Under the pieces are notes generated by a model, which was not told where the DNA came from, did no database searches, and saw only the letters and a list, made by a program, of their open reading frames with translations. A program made the translations under genes and the position numbers. From the NCBI RefSeq assembly GCF_000382245.1, contig NZ_KB907880.1, forward strand, positions 1 through 64,000: 64,000 bases of DNA, given 5' to 3'. The DNA comes from Kushneria aurantia DSM 21353. Its GTDB lineage: Bacteria; Pseudomonadota; Gammaproteobacteria; Pseudomonadales; Halomonadaceae. Shown here one piece after another: positions 22,754 through 35,238 of this stretch (the first letter of the stretch is position 1; the number at the start of each line of letters is the position of its first letter).

Positions 22754-22946
22754 AACGTCTCGGGCAAGGCGCGACAAACTCAGCGGAACGGACAGGTTAC
22801 TGTGACATCAGGACTTTCAGCGCCTCGGGGTGGCAGCAAAGTCTTCTCACCGCCACCGATAAAGCATCTCCGGCGACTGAAGGTTCTACCTCTCCCTGCC
22901 GTTGGGTACCTTGTCACCACAAAACAAAACGGGCGGGAGGAAGGTC

Positions 22947-23444
22947 ATGCAGTCACAAAAAGGGGTAAGCCTGGCCGAGATGCTGGTCGCCGTCATGCTT
23001 GTCGCGCTGCTGGCAACGTTCGGGCTGCCGGCGCTGCAGCGGTGGCAGCTCAACGCCCGCATCAATCAGCAGTCGCATGCCCTGACGGGGTTGGTCCAGC
23101 AGGCACGCAGTGGGGCGCTGGAGAGCGGGCGACACTGGACGCTATGTGGCAGTGGCGACGGCCAGCGCTGCGGTAAAAATCGTGATGCCGATTGGCGCTA
23201 CGCACTGCTGCTCAACGCCAGTGGCAACATCGTACAGCGCCTCAGGGTCGACAACCGCCTTGCCGTCTACTGGCACGGTTTCAGAAACAGACTGCACTTC
23301 TCACCGCGGCTGGCCAGCGCCATGCTCAACGGCTCCTTTTACGTCTGCGCCGACCGTGCCGACAGAGCGAAGCGCATCGTCATCAACCGGCTGGGCCGCA
23401 TCCGCCACGAAAGCGTCGCCGCCGGCGTCTACTGCGGTACTTGA
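22947..23444 (+). CDS. Type IV minor prepilin, FimT/GspH family
   Basis: The 165-aa minor pseudopilin has a class III signal KG/VSLAEMLVAVML, with Glu at +5 after the PilD cleavage site and a long hydrophobic helix. Four Cys in the mature part may form disulfides. GGGAGGAAGG precedes the ATG at 22947. In Pseudomonas the equivalent fimU/fimT gene is in the same operon as pilVWXY1. Here it lies on the opposite strand, converging on pilY1 with nine bases between stops, so it must be expressed separately. Confidence 0.85.
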   Translation: MQSQKGVSLAEMLVAVMLVALLATFGLPALQRWQLNARINQQSHALTGLVQQARSGALESGRHWTLCGSGDGQRCGKNRDADWRYALLLNASGNIVQRLRVDNRLAVYWHGFRNRLHFSPRLASAMLNGSFYVCADRADRAKRIVINRLGRIRHESVAAGVYCGT

Positions 23445-23453
23445 CGGTGGCAG

Positions 23454-26400
23454 TCACTGCTGCCCCTGCCGCCACCATACCGACTCACTGATCCGGCAGG
23501 AGCTGAAGCGCCCCTCCTCGGCATCATAGTCACCGCAGCTGCGGCCATCCTCGCTGCCGCCGTCTTTCAGCACACTGTTGACGGCATCGATGGCGCTGTT
23601 ACCGAGCACGCTGACGCCTTCGTCACGTACCAGCAGGGAGGGTGTGTCCTGAATATAGCGCCCCATCCCGGTCTGGTTGACCTCCCCCGCCTGCTGAACG
23701 CGGACACCCTGCTCGTTGACGACGAAGCGGGGCAGCCGGAAGCCGAACAGGGTGCTGCGCCCGGCGGCCACTTCGCACATACTCGCCGCACTGGTGGGGG
23801 TGTAGGTGGTAAAGAGCGTACTGCCACCCACGGTGGAAGCGTCGGAAAACACCTTGTCGCCGGGCGGCAGCGTCAGCCGCCAGCCCTTGAAGCCCCGGGC
23901 ATCCTCATCGCTGAAGCGCTCATTGCCCCGGGCATCTTCACTGCTGGGCACCCTCAGCAGCGGCCGGGCATCATTGGCGACCACATTTGTCAGCTTATCG
24001 TCGCTGAGTGGCGGCGGCGCTGCGGTGCCGTTCAGCCAGGGTGACACTTCGAGAATATAAAAGGCGTTCTGTGTCGACGGCACGAGCGGCGCGGCGCGGT
24101 TGCCGCTGCCGATCAGCAAAAGATCCACCGGCCGACGGTCGATGTAGGTGCGTACCAGGTTGGCACGATTGAAAAAACGCCGGTCGGCGGCACCGCTACC
24201 GGCGTGGCGTCCGAGAGTTGCGACCCGGCGCAGCGTCCAATTGTCGCTGTCGGCGAGATCGGCAAACCAGACGTTACCCCCCACATCGCCGAAAAAGGCG
24301 CCATCCGGGCGGCCGTCGAAGTCGCGGTCTACCGGCGTAATATCAGCGGCGACGCTGTCGACCAGTTCGTTATGGGTCAGCTGGCTGACGATTTCGCCGC
24401 TGCGGGCATTCAACACGTTAAAACTCGCGCCCAGTGCGCTGGCGGCCGGCAGGCCGCTGTCGTAGGCGATATCGTAGCCGCCACCGAACATGAAAACAGG
24501 CGTTTCAACAGTATTTGTCTCATTCAGACGGCGACGCTCGATCCTGAGCTGCGCCGCTACCGGCGTCGACCAGCTCTGCCCCCAGTGCTTCTCCATGGCG
24601 CGCCACTTGAGCTGCGGGCGATCCATCTGCGTGACATCGAGACCGTAATAGCCGCGCCCGCCGCGACGAAAGCCAAAGGTGAGGATCGCCTCCTCCAGCC
24701 GGCGGCGGCGCTGGCCGCTGTCGTTGACCTCCTCACGGTAGTCAAGCCAGGCAACCGGGCTGCCATCAATGCCATAGCGGGCCGACTGCTCGATATAGCG
24801 GGTGTCGTCGTCCCCGTCCGGCCAGGGGTAAACCGCATCGGCATTGAGCATGCGATAGACCGCCATGGCGGCGCTCTCCTGCGGCCAGAAGGCCCACTGT
24901 TCTATACCGCTGCTGTCATCGAAGGCGTGCAGCACGCCTTCATTGGTGCCCACGAAAACCCGCAGGCGCTGATCGCTTTCGCCACAATTGTCGAGGCTCC
25001 CGGCGCAGCCGTAGTTGATCGCCAGCGGCCGCGAATGCAGGATATCGCCCATCATCCAGGCGCGCGCTTCGGTCTCGCTGGCATCGGTCACATCGAACCC
25101 CATCAGCCAGTCACCCAGGTTGCGCATATCGATATCCCAGCGACCGTAGGGGGCCTCGGCAAGCGTCTGTGCGGCGCGGGGGTGAAGCGCTTCAAACAGG
25201 GTCTGCAACGTCTGCCAGCGCTGATCGTCAGCGCCTATGGCGTGCAGATCGAGCAGGCCGTCAGGCCCCATATCAGTATAGAAGTTGGTTCGGTTACCAA
25301 GATAACCGCCCGAGTCACTCACTACCTTGTCGAGCAGCCGCGCACCGGCGCCGCCCTGCATCACAGCGCCCGGCGCCTGCTGTTCGGTCGTTCCGCGACT
25401 CCATAGATCGCGCTCGCTGATATTGTCTTTCTCGCTGCTACCGTCGCTCTCGAAAGCAAACTTCTTGAGATTGCCCGTCCAGGGCAGGTAGCTGCGGGGC
25501 AGAAAAAGCGAGCGGTAAACGCCCTCGAGATTGCGCGTCCCGGCCACATTGGAAGCGGCGGAGTAGTTCTCCTGACGTATCTCGTTGTCGATGATATCGC
25601 CCAGAATATCGCCGAAGGCTCTGGTGAGCTGTTCGCTGTTGCGAGCGGTATAGTAGCCCCTTTCGATCCCGTCCGGCGGTTGAGCGGCATCCAGCAGCAG
25701 CTGCTGATCGGTATTGAAGCCGAGGGTAAAGGTATAGGCGCGCTGGTCGCCGGCAAGCTGCGGTCGACCGTTTTCACCGTCGGCGAGATCGTGATTGGCC
25801 ATGAAAGCCGTCAGCTGCGGCAGGCAGTTTTCGATCCGCTCATCAAAAGCGGCCTCGTAGATATCGCATGACGCGCCGGGCCCCAACAGGTTTTTGACAT
25901 ACTCATTGGCGCGGGTATCAAACTGCGGTAGACCATCCGTCATGTAGATGACGTAAACGTTTTCGCAGGGGCGCAGGGGCGACACATAACGCCCGCTTTG
26001 TTCGACGCTGGGCGACTGATCCCGCTCGGGCGGCACGCCGCCTGACTCAAGGCCGTATTGCACCTCTTCACCGATGAAATAGCGATACACCTCGGACATG
26101 GTTTCGCATAGCGGTGTCGAGGCATTGTTTTGCAGCGCCGCAACCATTGACAGCAGCTGCTGGCGCTCATCGCCACTCTGGATCGCGCTGGCGGGGAAGC
26201 CCTGCACAACGCGGCCACCGTTATTGATCTCTACACAGCCTTGCGGAGTGCAGTCGCTGATGTAATTGTCGTTGAACGCCGTTAATGCAAAATTGACCCC
26301 CGGATACTGACGCACAAGATCGGAGACGATATCGCGGGCAATGGCGATGCGCGTTCTCGATCCGCTGTCGGTCGGCTCCTCCTGGCCCATACTGAAGGAC

Positions 26401-26546
26401 GTATCGAAAATCACCATCACCTGCGGCTGGCCGCCCAGCCCCTCGGCCTGGTATTCGGGCAGATAAATATCGACGTCGTCGGCCCACCCCGAAGCGGGCA
26501 GCAGCACCAGCAGCAGTGCCCGCCGCATGAACTGGCGAATTCTCAC
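23454..26546 (-). CDS. pilY1: Type IV pilus tip adhesin / biogenesis factor PilY1
   Basis: Large secreted pilus-tip protein needed for pilus extension, adhesion and surface sensing. The 1030 aa start with a signal peptide (cleavage likely after GWA, residue 22). A von Willebrand A domain follows with MIDAS motif DTSFS at 48-52, then a C-terminal beta-propeller with a calcium loop, DRDFDGRPD, near residue 739. The start is a GTG at 26546 overlapping the pilX stop by four bases (GTGA), with GGGAGG upstream. An ATG six codons later would still keep the signal peptide. Confidence 0.92.
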   Translation of the reverse strand: MRIRQFMRRALLLVLLPASGWADDVDIYLPEYQAEGLGGQPQVMVIFDTSFSMGQEEPTDSGSRTRIAIARDIVSDLVRQYPGVNFALTAFNDNYISDCTPQGCVEINNGGRVVQGFPASAIQSGDERQQLLSMVAALQNNASTPLCETMSEVYRYFIGEEVQYGLESGGVPPERDQSPSVEQSGRYVSPLRPCENVYVIYMTDGLPQFDTRANEYVKNLLGPGASCDIYEAAFDERIENCLPQLTAFMANHDLADGENGRPQLAGDQRAYTFTLGFNTDQQLLLDAAQPPDGIERGYYTARNSEQLTRAFGDILGDIIDNEIRQENYSAASNVAGTRNLEGVYRSLFLPRSYLPWTGNLKKFAFESDGSSEKDNISERDLWSRGTTEQQAPGAVMQGGAGARLLDKVVSDSGGYLGNRTNFYTDMGPDGLLDLHAIGADDQRWQTLQTLFEALHPRAAQTLAEAPYGRWDIDMRNLGDWLMGFDVTDASETEARAWMMGDILHSRPLAINYGCAGSLDNCGESDQRLRVFVGTNEGVLHAFDDSSGIEQWAFWPQESAAMAVYRMLNADAVYPWPDGDDDTRYIEQSARYGIDGSPVAWLDYREEVNDSGQRRRRLEEAILTFGFRRGGRGYYGLDVTQMDRPQLKWRAMEKHWGQSWSTPVAAQLRIERRRLNETNTVETPVFMFGGGYDIAYDSGLPAASALGASFNVLNARSGEIVSQLTHNELVDSVAADITPVDRDFDGRPDGAFFGDVGGNVWFADLADSDNWTLRRVATLGRHAGSGAADRRFFNRANLVRTYIDRRPVDLLLIGSGNRAAPLVPSTQNAFYILEVSPWLNGTAAPPPLSDDKLTNVVANDARPLLRVPSSEDARGNERFSDEDARGFKGWRLTLPPGDKVFSDASTVGGSTLFTTYTPTSAASMCEVAAGRSTLFGFRLPRFVVNEQGVRVQQAGEVNQTGMGRYIQDTPSLLVRDEGVSVLGNSAIDAVNSVLKDGGSEDGRSCGDYDAEEGRFSSCRISESVWWRQGQQ

Positions 26547-27043
26547 GAGGCGCCTCCCGTTCCCAGGCTGAGAATGCCCTGATAGAGATTGTCGTTGCCG
26601 CCGCTATTGCCGCCGTCAGCCGCCGGCGGCTCGGCGCGCAGCTCGAAGTAGCGGAAGTTACTCAGCCCCTGGTTGTCGCGGGCGCCAAAGCTGGTGGAAT
26701 AGCGACGCTCGAGATGCTCGCGTATTTCAGCCGGGGGCGTCGGCATGCGCGCCGTGTCGCACAGCTGGCGCATCTCGAGGCGCTCACTGCCGGTGGCGGC
26801 ATACTGCTGACCACAGGCCAGGTCCAGGTGATCGCGTACCAGCTCATCGATATCGCCGCGCCGGCTCTCGAGGCTGCCCTCCTGCTGTTGAAAATCGGTG
26901 GTACCCTCCATCGCCCGATAGGCGAAGCGGGTATCCAGCAGGCCACGCTGCACCAACGACAGCGCCAGCAGCGTCATGCCGGAGAGCAGTATCAGGCCGA
27001 TCAGCAGCGCAAAGCCGCCCTGGCGCCGGATCTCAGTAGCCAT
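26543..27043 (-). CDS. pilX: Type IV pilus assembly protein PilX
   Basis: Minor pilin-like protein, 166 aa. The N-terminus QGG/FALLIGLILLSGMTLLAL is a cleavable prepilin leader plus helix but lacks the Glu at +5, as I understand is usual for PilX. PilX helps prime pilus assembly with PilV, PilW and PilY1. It overlaps pilW by 11 bases and pilY1 by four, so the four genes are tightly coupled. Confidence 0.87.
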   Translation of the reverse strand: MATEIRRQGGFALLIGLILLSGMTLLALSLVQRGLLDTRFAYRAMEGTTDFQQQEGSLESRRGDIDELVRDHLDLACGQQYAATGSERLEMRQLCDTARMPTPPAEIREHLERRYSTSFGARDNQGLSNFRYFELRAEPPAADGGNSGGNDNLYQGILSLGTGGAS

Positions 27044-27941
27044 TGCCCTGTTGCCTCAAACGGTTGTTGCGGATCGTCACGGTGGTGGTGAACAGGCGAC
27101 GCAGATAGCCGTCATCACGGGTGACAGACTGCCCGCCGATCATGAAGTCACGCGCCGGTGCATTGAGTACCGGGCGCTCGCTGCGTACCAGCACATAAAG
27201 ACGCGCCGCCACCACCTGCCGCCAGGCGTTTATCGACCAGCTGCGCGCTTCGACGCCGTTGCCGGAAAAGAAATGATCGGCGCTGCCGTCCCGGTTGCTG
27301 TCGATCCCCCACTCCACCTCGAGACGTTCCACATAGCGCACCACCTCACTCGTCTCCGAGGCATTGCCACTGCCGCGGCGGGTGACATAGAGCGCCGGCG
27401 CACCGCCGTCGACCCGGCGCAGATGATAAAGCGCCTGGGCCAGCCGCCAGTGCGTGCAGCTGCCGGTCGAGACCGTCAGCCTGCGATTGTCATCGACATC
27501 AAGGCAGGGCCCTCGGCTTTCGTTGGCATAGCGCACGCCCACGGCCTGCGATCCCGGTATCATGCTGTCCGCCATCGGCAGCCCGATTCTGCCCGCCTCC
27601 TCGGCGTTGCCTCCCCATACCGGCAGGGCGTTTTCGATAGCGAACAGATCAAAGCCGGCATTGGCAGGGAAGTCGTCGTTGGCGATGTCATCGGGTACTT
27701 CGGGAGCAATGACCTCGCCCCAGAAACCGCTCTGACGCAGGTCGCCGGCGATCAGCTGGGTCGCGAGCCGCCCGCGCGCCTGTAGATCGGCCATCGCCTG
27801 CTGCTGCACGAAGGCCCGGCTGGTCTGCATGTAAAGCATCACCATGCCGGCGACTACCACGGCGCCGATGGCCATGGCGATCATCAGCTCCAGCAGGGTG
27901 GCGCCCCCCTGGCGATGCCGGTCGAGGGACGCGCGCCTCAT
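27033..27941 (-). CDS. pilW: Type IV pilus assembly protein PilW
   Basis: Minor pilin of 302 aa with prepilin signal QGG/ATLLELMIAMAIGAVV (Glu at +5). The long C-terminal domain contains a PilW-type segment (AFVQQQAMADLQARGRLA then LRQSGFWG). Its ATG overlaps the pilV stop as ATGA. With PilV and PilX it forms the priming complex at the pilus tip. Confidence 0.88.
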   Translation of the reverse strand: MRRASLDRHRQGGATLLELMIAMAIGAVVVAGMVMLYMQTSRAFVQQQAMADLQARGRLATQLIAGDLRQSGFWGEVIAPEVPDDIANDDFPANAGFDLFAIENALPVWGGNAEEAGRIGLPMADSMIPGSQAVGVRYANESRGPCLDVDDNRRLTVSTGSCTHWRLAQALYHLRRVDGGAPALYVTRRGSGNASETSEVVRYVERLEVEWGIDSNRDGSADHFFSGNGVEARSWSINAWRQVVAARLYVLVRSERPVLNAPARDFMIGGQSVTRDDGYLRRLFTTTVTIRNNRLRQQGNGY

Positions 27942-28507
27942 GACGTCTCCTCTTCCACGAAAAAGCGGCTACTGATGGCGACACCCTGGCGAGCGTTGGC
28001 AATATCACTGCTGCCGCAGTTATTCGACGCGGCGCCGGGGCCGGTACCCTGCCACACCAGGCTGACCGTCACCTGGCTGACCGGGGTCGCGCCGTCGCTG
28101 CTGATACAGGCGCGGGCGTCGGGCAGGCCGTCATTGTTGGCCGGCGAGATCTGGCGCTCCCAGTCCTCGAGATCGGAGCGTGCCATTTCGATGCTGCTGC
28201 AGGGCTCCCAACGGCCGCGGCAATCGATACCTCCCGCCTGTTGACCGCCGCCGATGGGCGCACTGGCACCCTCGCCAACGGCGTAGACCGCCAGCGCTTC
28301 GCTGGTGGCATTGGCGCGGATGCGCTCCAGCATATCGTTGACCAGCAGAGTGGCGCGCCCGCGCTGCAGCGCCTGCTCGTTGCTCTGCTGGGCGCTCACC
28401 ACCAGCCCGATGACACCCAGCGCCCCCACGCTGAGCACCACCAGTGCGACCAGCGCTTCCAGCAGTGAGAAGCCGTGCTGCCTGTCTTTAACGGGATAAC
28501 GAAACAT
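27938..28507 (-). CDS. pilV: Type IV pilus modification/minor pilin PilV
   Basis: Minor pilin of 189 aa with prepilin signal QHG/FSLLEALVALVVLSVGALG (Glu at +5) and four Cys in the mature domain. It is the first gene of the leftward pilVWXY1 operon. No pilE gene is present in this window. The upstream stretch 28529-28560 is AT-rich with a CGATAG/CTATCG inverted repeat, where the promoter may lie. Confidence 0.88.
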   Translation of the reverse strand: MFRYPVKDRQHGFSLLEALVALVVLSVGALGVIGLVVSAQQSNEQALQRGRATLLVNDMLERIRANATSEALAVYAVGEGASAPIGGGQQAGGIDCRGRWEPCSSIEMARSDLEDWERQISPANNDGLPDARACISSDGATPVSQVTVSLVWQGTGPGAASNNCGSSDIANARQGVAISSRFFVEEETS

Positions 28508-28626
28508 GGCGATGCCGATTGGGAGAGTCGATAGAGAAATCGATATCTATCGTTTTATCGGCATTGCGAAGGAGAACTGAAGCGCAGGCAGAGGGCAGAG
28601 TGGCAGGGCAGAAAGCAGACGCCGTT

Positions 28627-29103
28627 TCAGCGTCGCCGGCGTGATGCCAGCTCCTGTTTCAGCTTCGACACGGGGCGCACCAGCAGAAAACCGAAGGAGA
28701 CCGCGCCCTCTCTGGTCTCCACCGCGTGGTGCAGGCGGTGGGCCTGAATGCGCTTTTTCCAGAAGGCGCGCTGACGGTCGAAGGGCACCGGAAAGCGCCG
28801 GTGCACCAGGCCATCGTGGAACATGAAGTAAACCAGCCCGTAGGCGGCAATTCCCAGCCCCAGTGCCAACAGCAGCGGATAGCCGTTGAGACCGAAATAG
28901 ATCAGCACCACCGACGGCAGCGCGAACACCACGGCAAAGAGGTCGTTGAGTTCGAAGGCGCCGTGGCGCTCGCTGTGGTGCGACTTGTGCCAGCACCACA
29001 AAAAACCGTGCATGACGTAGCGATGGGTCAGCCAGGCGACGACCTCCATGCCGCCAAGGCCGACCAGAAACAGCGCTATCCACAGCAGCAGATCCAGCAT
29101 CAC
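28627..29103 (-). CDS. crtZ: Beta-carotene hydroxylase (CrtZ-like, fatty acid hydroxylase superfamily)
   Basis: Di-iron membrane enzyme expected to hydroxylate beta-carotene rings to zeaxanthin. The 158-aa protein has the full histidine set: HRYVMHG (27-33), HKSHHSERHG (39-48), FHDGLVHRRF (about 94-103) and HRLHH (about 121-125). Four hydrophobic segments are visible. No other carotenoid gene (crtE, crtB, crtI, crtY) lies in the window, so its substrate must come from elsewhere in the genome. It sits between ispH and the pilin operon, 40 bases after ispH, and could be the last gene of the ispH operon. Confidence 0.82.
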   Translation of the reverse strand: MMLDLLLWIALFLVGLGGMEVVAWLTHRYVMHGFLWCWHKSHHSERHGAFELNDLFAVVFALPSVVLIYFGLNGYPLLLALGLGIAAYGLVYFMFHDGLVHRRFPVPFDRQRAFWKKRIQAHRLHHAVETREGAVSFGFLLVRPVSKLKQELASRRRR

Positions 29104-29143
29104 TCTCTCCCGGGTATTTCACGCCGCTCGCCGGCGGCGCGGC

Positions 29144-30661: not shown

Positions 30662-31201
30662 TCACCGCTCATGGTGTTGCTCCGTCTGCGCGCGCTCTCT
30701 TCTGCCGGCGCGGAAGGATTCGATGATGATGCCGATCGCGCCGACGGTGATCGCTGCATCCGCCAGATTGAAGGCCGGGTAGTACCAGCCCTGCCAGTGG
30801 AAGGAGAGATAGTCGATGACATAGCCGTGCACCAGGCGATCGAACAGGTTGCCCAGCGCGCCGCCGATGATCAGCGCGATCGAGATCGGCATCAGCCGCT
30901 CGTAACGCGACAGCCGCGCCAGCCAGATCGTCAGCGCCGTGACCGCGACCATCGCCACGAGGGCAAACAACCAGCGCTGCCAGCCGGCATGCTCGGCGAG
31001 AAAACTGAAGGCCGCGCCGGTGTTGTGCAGAAGCGTCAGATTGAAAAAGGGCGTCACCTCCAGCGGCCGGGCATAGATTAACGCGGCGCTGGCCCAGGCC
31101 TTGAGCGCCAGGTCGAGCGCAATCACCAGCACCGACAGCAAAAGCCAGCGCAGGGTGTAGCGCGCATGGGCGTAGCGACTAACCTGCCCGCGCTCAGGCA
31201 T
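30662..31201 (-). CDS. lspA: Lipoprotein signal peptidase (signal peptidase II)
   Basis: Inner-membrane aspartyl protease that removes lipoprotein signals after lipidation. The 179-aa protein has four membrane helices and the family blocks [18 protein letters not shown] and FNLADAAI; the two catalytic Asp are in the last two. The ATG at 31201 overlaps the ileS stop by eight bases. The 40 residues encoded upstream in frame are inside ileS and rejected. Confidence 0.95.
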
Positions 31202-34043
31202 AGCGACGCACCTCGCCCGGGCCGCCGGGCAGGTTGGCGATGGAGCGGGCCGACAGCGTCGGATGCGCAGGATCGGCCCCCACATCGGCACGCCGCTCCC
31301 AACTGCGCTCATCCTTCTCATATGGGCTCAGGCGCACCGCCAGCTTGAGCCCCTCAAGCTCGGTCGGCTGGGCATCAGCGCCCTCATTCAGTGGTCTGAG
31401 CGTCGCTTCGGAGGTGATCAGTACAAAGCGCAGCTCATCACCGAGCTTTTCCAGCAGCGCACGCTGGGCCTCGTCAACGAACAGGGTCACCTCACTATCC
31501 AGCGCGCCCTTGATCAGCCCGTCGTTGCGCGCCTCTTCGAGACGTTTGTTGACCGCGTGCTTGACCGCCAGCACCGTCTCCCAGAAGTCGCGCCCCATTT
31601 CGGCATCCGCCGGCAGCCTGGCCAGACCGTCGTAGAAGGTTTCCAGAAAGATGGAGTCGCTGCGCGCACCGGGGATATGCTCGTGAATCTCCTCGGCGGT
31701 AAACGACAGGATCGGTGCGATCCAGCGCGACAGCGCTTCGATGACGTGATAGAGCGCGCTCTGGCAGCTTCTGCGCGCCAGCGAGTCGGGCTGGGTGGTG
31801 TACTGACGATCCTTGATCACATCCAGGTAGAAGCCGCCGAGATCGCGGGCACAGAAGTCATGCACCTGCTGGTAGATGTCACGGAAGCGATACTCGGCGT
31901 AAGCCGCCTCGACGCTCTCCTGCAGCAGGGCGGCGCGGTCCACCACCCAGCGATCCAACGCAATCATCTCCTCGAACGCCACCATGTCACGCGCCGGCTC
32001 GAAACCGGTCAGGTTGCCGAGCAGAAAGCGCGAGGTGTTGCGAATGCGGCGATACACATCGGCCGTACGCTTCAATATCTCATCGGAAACGGCCATTTCG
32101 CCGGAATAGTCGGTCGAGGCGACCCACAGGCGCAGAATATCGGCGCCCAGGGTATCGATGACCTTTTGTGGCGCCACCACATTGCCCAGCGACTTGGACT
32201 GCTTGCGACCCTTCTCGTCGACCGTGAAACCATGGGTCAAAAGCGCCCTGTAGGGGGCATGGCCGTCGATCGCGCAGCCGGTCAGCAAAGACGAGTGGAA
32301 CCAGCCGCGGTGCTGATCCGACCCCTCGAGATAGAGATCCGCACGCGGCCCCTCCGCGTGACCGAGCGGGTGCGAGCCACGCAGCACATGAAAGTGGGTG
32401 GTTCCCGAGTCGAACCAAACATCAAGGGTATCGGTGACCTTCTCGTACTGATCGGCCTCGTCGCCCAGCAGCTCGCTGGGGTCGAGCTTGAACCAGGCCT
32501 CGATCCCTTCGACCTCGACGCGGCTTGCCACCGCCTCCATCAGCTCGACGGTGCGCGGATGCAGCTCGCCGCTGGCCTTGTGCAGGAAGAACGGGATCGG
32601 CACCCCCCAGCTGCGCTGGCGCGAGATGCACCAGTCGGGGCGATTGGCGATCATGCTGTGCAGCCGCGCCTTGCCCCAGCTCGGCGTGAACTGCGTGGCC
32701 TCGATACCCGCCAGCGCCTGCTCGCGAAGCGTTTTACCTTCCCGGCCGCGGATATCCATGCCGACGAACCACTGCGCCGTGGCGCGATAGATCACCGGCG
32801 TCTTGTGGCGCCAGCAGTGCATATAACTGTGAGTGATCTCGTCGTGCGCCAGCAGCGCTCCAGCCTCTTCCAGGGCGGTGACGATCTGCGGATTGGCCTT
32901 CCAGATCATCATGCCGCCGAACAGCGCGAGATCATCGACATAGACACCGTTGCCCTGCACCGGATTGAGGATCTCGTCGAAGCTCATGCCGTAACGGCGG
33001 CAGGAGTGGAAGTCATCCTCGCCGTAGGCCGGCGCCGAGTGCACGATGCCGGTACCCGCGCCCAGCTCGACGTAGTCGGCCAGATAGAGCGGCGAGCGCC
33101 GCGCATAGCCTGCGTCGACCGTGGCCAGCGGATGCTCGAAGGCGATGTGTTCCAGGCTCGCGCCGGGCGCGGTGGCAAGCGTCTCGCCCTCAAGTCCGTA
33201 ACGCGCAAGGCAGCTCTCCACCAGCGCCTCGGCCAGCAGCAGCAGGCGCTCGCCGGTATCGACCAGGGCGTAGGTGAACTCCGGGTGCACGTTCATCGCC
33301 TGGTTGGCCGGAATGGTCCAGGGGGTGGTGGTCCAGATCACCGCGCTGGCCGACCCGGGCAGCGTGTCAAGGCCGAAGGCCGCGGCCAGCGCCTCGGGCT
33401 GGGCGCAGGGGAAGGCGACGTCGATCGCATCGGACTGCTTGTCCTGATACTCGACCTCCGCCTCGGCCAGCGCCGAGCCGCAGTCGAAGCACCAGTTGAC
33501 CGGCTTGAGCCCCTTGAACACATAGCCCCCCTTGACCATCTCGGCCAGGGCGCGAATCTCGCCCGCCTCGTTGGCGAAGTTCATGGTCAGATAGGGGTGG
33601 TCCCAGTCGCCCTGGACGCCAAGACGCACGAAGCCCTCTTTCTGCACCTCGACCTGGGCGGCGGCATACTCGCGGCACAGCGCGCGGGCCTGGTCGGCGG
33701 GCAGGTGCTTGCCGTGGGTGGTCTCGACCTTGTGCTCGATAGGCAGGCCGTGGCAGTCCCAACCCGGCACATAGGGGGCATCGAAACCGGCCAGGGTTTT
33801 CGACTTGACCACGATATCCTTGAGGATCTTGTCGAGCGCATGACCGATATGAATGCTGCCATTGGCGTAGGGCGGGCCATCGTGCAGCACAAACAGTGGG
33901 GCACCGGCGCGCGCTTCACGCAGGCGCTGGTACAGATTCATGTCCTGCCACCGCGAGACCCGGCCCGGCTCCTGTTTGGGCAGCATGCCACGCATGGGGA
34001 AATCGGTATGGGGCAGATTCAACGTGTGCTTGTAGTCGCTCAT
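31194..34043 (-). CDS. ileS: Isoleucyl-tRNA synthetase with altered C-terminal zinc module
   Basis: Charges tRNA-Ile and edits valine. The 949 aa show the class I HIGH motif (65-68) and KQSKS loop (near 610), the CP1 editing domain, and a C-terminal segment aligning with the gammaproteobacterial zinc module. In relatives that module has a CxRCW pair and a CGRC pair. Here the same places read DERSW (911-915) and SARSI (931-935), while flanking residues ([14 protein letters not shown] and GEVRRYA) are retained. All four zinc cysteines are thus missing. The gene is otherwise full length and lies in the conserved ribF-ileS-lspA operon, so it should be functional. Confidence 0.96.
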
Positions 34044-34054
34044 AGCCTGATTGG

Positions 34055-35110
34055 TCAGCCGTCACTGTGGATGTCGGGGGCACTGCCCGAATGGGTGTGG
34101 GTGCTGCGTCCGCCGGCGCTGTCGCCATGCGGCGAAGTCAGCGGCGCCGAGGCGAGCGCAGGACGCTGCGCCGCCGACGCCGGGTGGCGGCGAAAGTAGT
34201 CGCGCGCCTGGTCAAGATCGAGATGGATGCGTCGCTTGAGCGCCTCGATGGAGTCGAAGGTCTCCTCGCCGCGCAGGCGAGCGCAGGGCATCACCGACAG
34301 CCGCTGACCGTAGAGCGATTCATCGAAATCGAAAAGATGCACCTCCAGCACCGGCCGATGCGAGCCCACCGTGGGCCGCCAGCCGATGTTGAGCACGCCC
34401 TTGATCTCGCGGCCATCTTCCAGCCGGGTCACGGCAGCCAGTACGCCGCGCAGCATCAACGGTCTGTTCAGCAGCGGGATGTTGGCGGTCGGTACGCCGA
34501 TGGTACGCCCCAGCTGGCGATCCTGCACCACCCGGCCGGCTATCGCGAAGGGGCGGCCCAGCAGCCGCGCCGCCTGCTCGAAGTTACCCGACGCCAGCAG
34601 GGTGCGCACCCGGCTGCTGGAGACGCGCTCGCCGGAAAGCATGAAGGTGCGCGTATGCTCGACCTCGAAGCCGCGCTGCGCACCGATGTCGCGCAGCAGA
34701 TCGAAATCGCCGGCGCGGTCGCAGCCAAAACGGAAGTCGTCACCGACCACCAGGTGGCGCACTCCCAGCCCCTCGATCAGTACCCGCTCGATGAAATCCC
34801 GCGCCGACAGCTCGCGCAGCCGACGGTTGAACGGCAGGCAGAGCACCCGGTCGGCACCGTAATCGGCCAGCAGCCGTACCTTGTCGGCCAGCCGGGTGAG
34901 CCGCGGCGGGGCCTGTTCGCCGGCGAAATATTCACGCGGCTGCGGCTCGAACACCACTACCACGGCGGGCAGCCCGAGGCGGCGGGCGTGGGCGCCAAGC
35001 TGGTCGAGAATCGCCTGGTGGCCGCGATGCACGCCGTCAAAATTGCCGATGGTAACGACGCTGCCCCGGTGTCGGGGGCGCAGGTTGTGCAAGCCTCTGA
35101 TCAGTTCCAT
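34055..35110 (-). CDS. ribF: Bifunctional riboflavin kinase / FAD synthetase
   Basis: Converts riboflavin to FMN and FAD. The 351 aa have an N-terminal nucleotidyltransferase domain ([18 protein letters not shown], 18-35, with the HxGH motif) and a C-terminal flavokinase domain from about residue 180 ([13 protein letters not shown] near 205). The last 35 residues are Ser/Ala/His-rich and look like an unstructured tail. It is first in the ribF-ileS-lspA-fkpB-ispH block, 11 bases before ileS. Confidence 0.95.
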
Positions 35111-35238
35111 GGGCCCTCACCGGCATCAAAGGGGGCATTATAGCGAAGCCGGCGAGGCTTATCAGCCGGATAAGCGTGCCGCAGTGCCGGTACCGGCCAC
35201 GCCAGCGGCATGGCCGGGGTGTTGTGATACGACCGCGC

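Follow-up and report, generated by a model that had tools for sequence, protein, structure and literature searches.

The window, a 64,000-nt stretch of Kushneria aurantia DNA, contains ileS, the gene for isoleucyl-tRNA synthetase (IleRS), in a run of genes (Table 1). A frame that we take to be ribF-like lies upstream of ileS; lspA, a gene for an FKBP-type isomerase and a presumably ispH-like gene lie downstream in the same run. The probable lspA start overlaps the ileS stop at 31194-31201 (ATGCCTGA), which suggests translational coupling. A small frame beside the ispH-like gene (28627-29118) presumably resembles a carotenoid hydroxylase, and the frames at 22881-28546 resemble what we take to be minor type IV pilins and a PilY1-like protein.

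Table 1. Features of the ileS locus (window coordinates) and of ribosomal protein loci of Kushneria
Feature	Position	Strand	Remarks
lspA (signal peptidase II)	30662..31201	-	PF01252; probable start ATG 31199-31201
ileS, type 1 isoleucyl-tRNA synthetase, 949 aa	31194..34043	-	complete; sole copy found in genome
Remodelled C-terminal module, residues 910-949 (KDERSWERR...RRYA)	31197..31316	-	alignment with relatives and 8c9e
S934 (TCC), ligand position Cys4	31242..31244	-	
S931 (TCG), ligand position Cys3	31251..31253	-	
E916 (GAG), His after Trp in canonical relatives	31296..31298	-	
S914 (AGT), ligand position Cys2	31302..31304	-	
D911 (GAT), ligand position Cys1	31311..31313	-	
C410, presumed first zinc site (HCWRHK)	32814..32816	-	intact
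C185-F-D-C188, presumed first zinc site	33480..33491	-	intact
ribF-like frame (presumed name) upstream of ileS	34055..35116	-	stop to stop
L31, G000	G000:C9:52617-52850 (L307)		G001 counterpart L305
L36, G000	G000:C18:67700-67822 (L326)		G001 counterpart L325
secY-rpsM gap loci	L331, L333		without Cys-type rpmJ

Filed on whole-protein similarity, the encoded enzyme is a type 1 IleRS (IleRS1). Specifically, it contains the class I catalytic and anticodon-binding domains (PF00133, 452.8 bits; PF08264, 91.2 bits), it matches the IleRS1 structures 8c9e and 1ffy with E values of 7.2e-246 and 2.9e-216 versus 2e-98 for the IleRS2 structure 8c9d, and the best Foldseek matches of its model are IleRS1 structures. 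Its length of 949 residues compares with 1,038-1,159 residues for nine type-2-like frames, which are 27-32% identical. The IHIG motif is present, and the counterpart of KMSKS reads KQSKS, as it does in 26 of 149 IleRS loci (the window's own included) with canonical and altered tails alike, the canonical-tailed G017, G019 and G027 among them. The Cys4 zinc motif at the C-terminus is absent, a loss that we treat as a variant feature of an IleRS1. The zinc-finger profile PF06827 (zf-FPG_IleRS) is not among the Pfam matches of the protein at an E value of 0.001 and so does not pick up the altered module of the window IleRS; its two matches in the genome are proteins that we take to be Fpg- and Nei-like, and both keep four Cys. 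A second ileS, sought across the K. aurantia assembly (G000; 61 contigs, 99.98% complete) as the initial annotation had proposed, was not found; the five further matches are short, 26-42% identical and located in other large frames.

The C-terminal module reads KDERSWERR...PTLSARSI, and the same stretch reads KCERCWHHR...LCGRC in canonical relatives. It aligns with these relatives and, without gaps, with P. megaterium IleRS1 (8c9e; EKCERCW...LCTRC). Because the canonical CERCW...CGRC and the 8c9e sequence align there, D911, S914, S931 and S934 occupy the four ligand positions. Cys1 is thus replaced by Asp, Cys2, Cys3 and Cys4 by Ser, and the His after the Trp by Glu. Translation of the frame confirms, at exactly the same bases, the initial annotation's reading that the module is kept in outline with all four cysteines lost, and the relatives and the solved structure agree that these are the zinc ligand sites. 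Thirty-nine loci were read with the D-S-S-S state, counting repeated genomes.

To call the protein a zinc-free version of an essential enzyme, as had been proposed, is too strong, since the other zinc site keeps its cysteines. C185, C188 and C410, which we take to be zinc-binding, are present in the window IleRS and invariant in a 32-row IleRS alignment. A pattern for the first-site CxxC failed in 9 of 54 IleRS, one of which (G011) has CxxC in another setting. WSVVG replaces this CxxC in G016 and G167, which have altered tails, and in G013, G032, G036 and G043, which have canonical tails. G016 combines WSVVG with a CSSS tail, so few ligands are left at either zinc site, and its sequence may represent a nearly zinc-free IleRS.

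An IleRS match was found in 58 of 58 genomes searched (K. aurantia included). A tail search of the family Halomonadaceae gave a match in 269 of 275 genomes and none in six. The tail is altered in 46 of the 275, and all 46 were read: 45 are among the 51 best-scoring tails, of which the other six are canonical, and the 46th is G214. The remaining 229 genomes are canonical by reading in 29 cases (those six and 23 lower-scoring tails) and by lower score in the rest. In G214, ileS lies in several frames, two pieces of which read DERSWER and LSARSI and are of the 0-Cys kind; the broken frame may be an assembly error. Altered tails occur in all genomes of Kushneria (g1, 10/10), Salinicola (g4, 18/18), g8 (3/3), Halotalea (g16, 2/2) and g10, g17 and g18 (1/1 each), and in 10 genomes of g11. 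The Salinicola label is taken from the named loci L080 and L038, whose ileS is the same as that of G201 and G204 over its last 1,200 bases; the Halotalea locus in g16 is L055, and over the same length L039 of Vreelandella malpeensis agrees with G238 of g11. The altered tail is genuine and conserved, and several genera share this variant of a known enzyme.

The Halomonadaceae tails form a series with 4, 3, 2, 1 and 0 Cys, and mapping of the losses, a check that the initial annotation had called for, shows a stepwise pattern. Written in the order Cys1 to Cys4, the tail is CSCC in g18; CSCS in g16, g17, a subset of g11 and two of the g8 genomes; CSSS in one g8 genome; CSTS in two Kushneria (G002 and G007); and DSSS in the other eight Kushneria, Salinicola and g10. 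Cys2 is replaced by an AGY Ser in every codon row examined, and its loss is paired with the His-to-Glu change at 916 in all 46 altered family genomes; one loss event therefore suffices. Cys4 is replaced by an AGY Ser in g16 and g17 and by a TCN Ser in the others, and Cys3 by a TCN Ser, an AGC Ser or Thr. These codon classes suggest that Cys2 was lost once and that Cys3 and Cys4 were each lost at least twice, with a switch of Ser codon class via Thr as a possible alternative to the repeated losses.

A profile of 14 canonical tails matched 334 of 369 genomes of the class. Thirty genomes, namely 14 of the 35 without a match and 16 low-scoring ones, were searched again with the whole protein, which left 21 no-match genomes and low scorers such as G470, G644 and G318 unread. 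Twenty-six of the 30 gave a match: nine are type-2-like, twelve have four Cys, three (G382, G357 and G485) run off the contig end before the tail, and the other two are G313 and G342. G319, G332, G368 and G448 gave no whole-IleRS match at an E value of 1e-60. G313, a 0.4 Mb genome that we take to be Portiera-like, retains an altered 2-Cys module, CSCS. G342 belongs to a different family, and its IleRS is 51% identical; its tail reads CERSWHRR...DSRSI (C-S-D-S), with Asp at Cys3 and the His kept. In this distantly related gammaproteobacterium three zinc ligands were lost independently, and further losses may exist in the class; within the order of G342 the survey covered G342 alone. Cys1 is the ligand kept longest in both lineages.

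The trees point to a mixed ancestry of the gene. IleRS trees were built without the tail from 54 rows, 30 of them altered, with G342 placed with the 24 others and the long rows G313 and G342 flagged by the tool. A single clade of the 30 altered rows is rejected for residues 1-640 (AU p 1e-7) and is not rejected for the anticodon domain, residues 671-900 (AU p 0.37). Tail state changes number six on the former tree and three on the latter, G342 being counted as altered there. Sliding identity between the 2-Cys G238 and the canonical G019 falls from 93% at the N-terminus to 60-61% over residues 826-949, and the last 49 residues of G238 are 83% like those of Halotalea. Between G016 and G238, identity is 40-53% over residues 151-525 and 68-83% over residues 676-949. 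A ClpB tree likewise rejects the altered genomes as one clade (AU p 5e-5). From the conflicting trees and sliding identities, ileS in the family is mosaic, the catalytic and editing part (1-640) and the anticodon domain (671-949) having separate histories.

Co-change of the tRNA, considered as a cause of the tail change, was not seen for the GAU isoacceptor in relatives. Of 36 genomes, 15 yielded the tRNA-Ile(GAU) gene, namely eight Halomonadaceae-type altered genomes, G342 and six canonical genomes; the K. aurantia copy is not among them. The gene is letter-identical in K. konosiri G001 and G004 (0 Cys), G016 (CSSS), G026 (CSCC) and the canonical G020, a second identical set comprises G002, G007, G167 and the canonical G019, and all 15 have one and the same anticodon stem and loop. 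As it is the same in altered and canonical relatives, this tRNA does not explain the change in the enzyme.

In their AlphaFold models, the window protein and the canonical Chromohalobacter protein (L045) have the main elements of the tail in common, among them a short helix that covers the second knuckle (residues 932-936 and 929-933, respectively). Ten-residue pLDDT means are 85, 89, 80 and 69 over residues 911-949 of the window model and 74-87 over residues 901-945 of the L045 model; large parts of the catalytic domains are poorly modelled in both. Because AlphaFold ignores metals and both input alignments mixed canonical and altered rows, the matching folds are weak evidence, and nothing in these predictions forbids the same fold for altered and canonical tails.

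Zinc-site cysteines are also missing from ribosomal proteins of Kushneria. All ten Kushneria genomes have a single, low-scoring L31 match of the long type (by score), and the three that were read (G000, G001 and G002) contain no Cys. Among the 272 family genomes with L31, this single long-type pattern is exclusive to Kushneria. Two L31 matches are found in Salinicola (18/18), g10, g16, g17, g18 and two of the three g8 genomes. The five second copies read (G012, G018, G024, G025 and G026) are without the Cys; those of 16 canonical two-copy genomes were left unread. In g11, nine of the ten altered genomes show a single L31 match, as does G016, and by score these matches are of the Cys type (G238 and G016 read).

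For L36, 14 genomes were tested: the long type, which we take to be zinc-free, stands alone in G000 and G001 (K. konosiri), G025 and G026 have both types, and ten have only the Cys type. The long type is thus found in two of three Kushneria genomes tested, and G002, whose IleRS has one Cys, retains a Cys-type L36. The long-type L36 of G000, which lies right behind a presumably S1-like frame, still has two Cys. Cys-type rpmJ lies between secY and rpsM in G002 and G012; the same gap in G000 and G001 contains no Cys-type rpmJ, and no such frame is left. A palindrome search with the Zur motif (two mismatches or fewer) at the stretches of the C- type (Cys-replaced) L31 and L36 found no site in G000, G001, G002, G012 or G018, found Zur-like sites in G024 and G025, and found weak ones in G026.

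We favour, with a probability of roughly 0.6, the reading that the C-terminal tRNA-binding zinc module of an IleRS1 has become a folded module without zinc at the site, through permanent zinc economy in translation. The starting change would be the loss of Cys2 along with the His-to-Glu change at 916. Side-chain hydrogen bonds and salt bridges of D911, E916, R917 and S914/S931/S934 with R913, R918 and R933 would hold the fold instead of the Zn-S4 cluster, and the anticodon region would still meet an unchanged basic surface on the remodelled tail. Permanent zinc economy in the translation machinery is the probable driving force, because Kushneria has also fixed a Cys-free-type L31, and K. aurantia and K. 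konosiri a zinc-free-type L36. A fuller version, which we put forward tentatively and at slightly less than even odds, is that the economy is permanent in Kushneria, where the IleRS tail, L31 and, in K. aurantia and K. konosiri, L36 exist only in zinc-free form; that the paired Cys2 and His changes acted as a ratchet that made the other ligands dispensable, several lineages then losing them and Cys1 being the last to go; and that the zinc-free anticodon block was passed between genera by recombination.

The link between the IleRS tail and L31 is correlational. A Cys-free-type or second L31 is found in 36 of the 46 altered genomes versus 16 of the 229 others (kinship not removed; three of the 229 without an L31 match). 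On a ClpB tree of 45 genomes, the C- type L31 is found in 23 of the 28 altered genomes and in none of the 17 canonical ones, which amounts to about four independent pairs, 2.2 in the expected direction and 0 against. With so few pairs significance is out of reach, and the L31 link is not significant. The earlier suggestion of a lineage adaptation to low zinc therefore holds in part: the state of L31 and L36 in Kushneria speaks for it, and the tree test does not establish it. Against zinc economy as the driving force stand the intact Fpg- and Nei-like zinc fingers of K. aurantia, the two Cys left in its L36, the Cys-type L36 of G002 and the single Cys-type L31 of most altered g11 genomes and of G016. 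For Kushneria, zinc sparing explains the data best at present; for the tail it is not proven.

The cysteines may instead have gone through a cause unrelated to zinc supply: oxidation or thiol chemistry could, for example, have acted in salty, oxidising niches, or drift could have set in once a first change had compensated, and the L31 and L36 types would then be a coincidence. The repeated losses of Cys3 and Cys4 suggested by the codon classes, which a ratchet would give, are consistent with this explanation, as are the predominance of Cys-type L31 alone in altered g11 genomes and the non-significant phylogenetic test. We nevertheless consider it unlikely, given that up to three translation proteins are zinc-poor or zinc-free in Kushneria, that the L31 counts differ between altered and other genomes (kinship uncorrected), and that the other Cys of the window IleRS are retained.

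Somewhat less likely still, a metal, perhaps one harder than zinc, is bound at the site through other ligands (Asp911, Glu916, H927 or Ser); forms with two or three Cys would in that case be Cys/Glu zinc sites. Metal sites are known that use Asp, Glu or His. Wherever the family has an altered tail, the His-to-Glu change goes with the first Cys loss, Asp stands at Cys1 in all 0-Cys forms read, and G342 has Asp at Cys3 with its His kept, but Ser, a poor zinc ligand, occupies three of the four positions. H927 is also found in many canonical four-Cys tails and thus is not newly recruited.

That the module is dispensable and drifting is very improbable, although all four ligands are gone from a motif that the available part of PMC4861432, citing Glasfeld 1996, calls essential for aminoacylation. 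pN/pS was calculated on the codon alignment, uncorrected for multiple hits, for residues 1-669, 670-869, 870-909 and 910-949. The tail (910-949) gives 0.13 in 13 distinct DSSS sequences, below the 0.20 of residues 670-869 and the 0.19 of residues 1-669, and again 0.13 in 13 CSCS sequences, below 0.27 and 0.26, respectively. Residues 870-909, just before the tail, are looser (0.31 for DSSS and 0.37 for CSCS). The canonical Halomonadaceae (35 rows) give 0.22 for the tail, and all 30 altered rows pooled, whose Cys states differ among rows, give 0.21, no lower than canonical. Slow evolution of the tail within the 0-Cys and 2-Cys groups indicates a module that was remodelled and is not decaying, which contradicts the relaxed tail that the initial annotation had offered as an alternative. 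The stretch ending PTLSARSI is also near-invariant across genera, and the altered module is retained even in the 0.4 Mb genome of G313. An error in the sequence or its assembly, or a pseudogene that accompanies a canonical copy, can be set aside, since the frame is intact, the copy is the only one and the D-S-S-S state recurs over its 39 loci in many separate assemblies, the frame-broken ileS in the assembly of one relative, G214, being the one such case and not that of the window.

The family provides a natural 4-3-2-1-0 ligand series on an unchanged tRNA-Ile(GAU), in which the way a protein gives up a structural metal without losing function, and the order of the steps, become testable. Kushneria has been cultured, and its zinc-free-type translation parts are seemingly fixed and are not kept as second copies, which would let the zinc cost and benefit in ribosomes and synthetases be measured.

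E. coli IleRS is a type 1 enzyme with a Cys4 C-terminal module. The window IleRS has its whole architecture in common with IleRS1 of P. megaterium (8c9e, whose tail aligns gap-free) and S. aureus (1ffy), and differs from an IleRS1 with a Cys4 module in that the four zinc ligands and the neighbouring His are replaced. The C- paralogues of L31 and L36, which spare zinc in translation, follow the same logic, namely replacement of the zinc-site Cys with the protein kept. They are usually Zur-regulated second copies, whereas ileS has changed in place as a single copy; in Kushneria, the C- L31 is also the only one found.

Stepwise, in-place loss of zinc ligands in a type 1 IleRS was not found in the open-licence literature searched. 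The eukaryote-like type 2 IleRS also has no Cys4 motif at its C-terminus, as described in the available parts of PMC4861432 and PMC10485003, but its third subdomain differs in size and fold, whereas the window IleRS keeps the type 1 module. The Zur-linked duplicates of CysRS and ThrRS retain their zinc ligands, according to the available part of PMC2770081. A precedent is the naturally zinc-free putative zinc-binding domain of a bacterial GluRS (PMC4381286, available part). It belongs to another enzyme and domain and acts on the acceptor side and not the anticodon side, and the dispensability of zinc was shown by experiment there. Like the IleRS module, it is a tRNA-touching synthetase domain that lost its ligands naturally; held by hydrogen bonds and cation-pi contacts, it keeps its fold, is fully active and works as well as the zinc-bound one (PMC4381286, same part).
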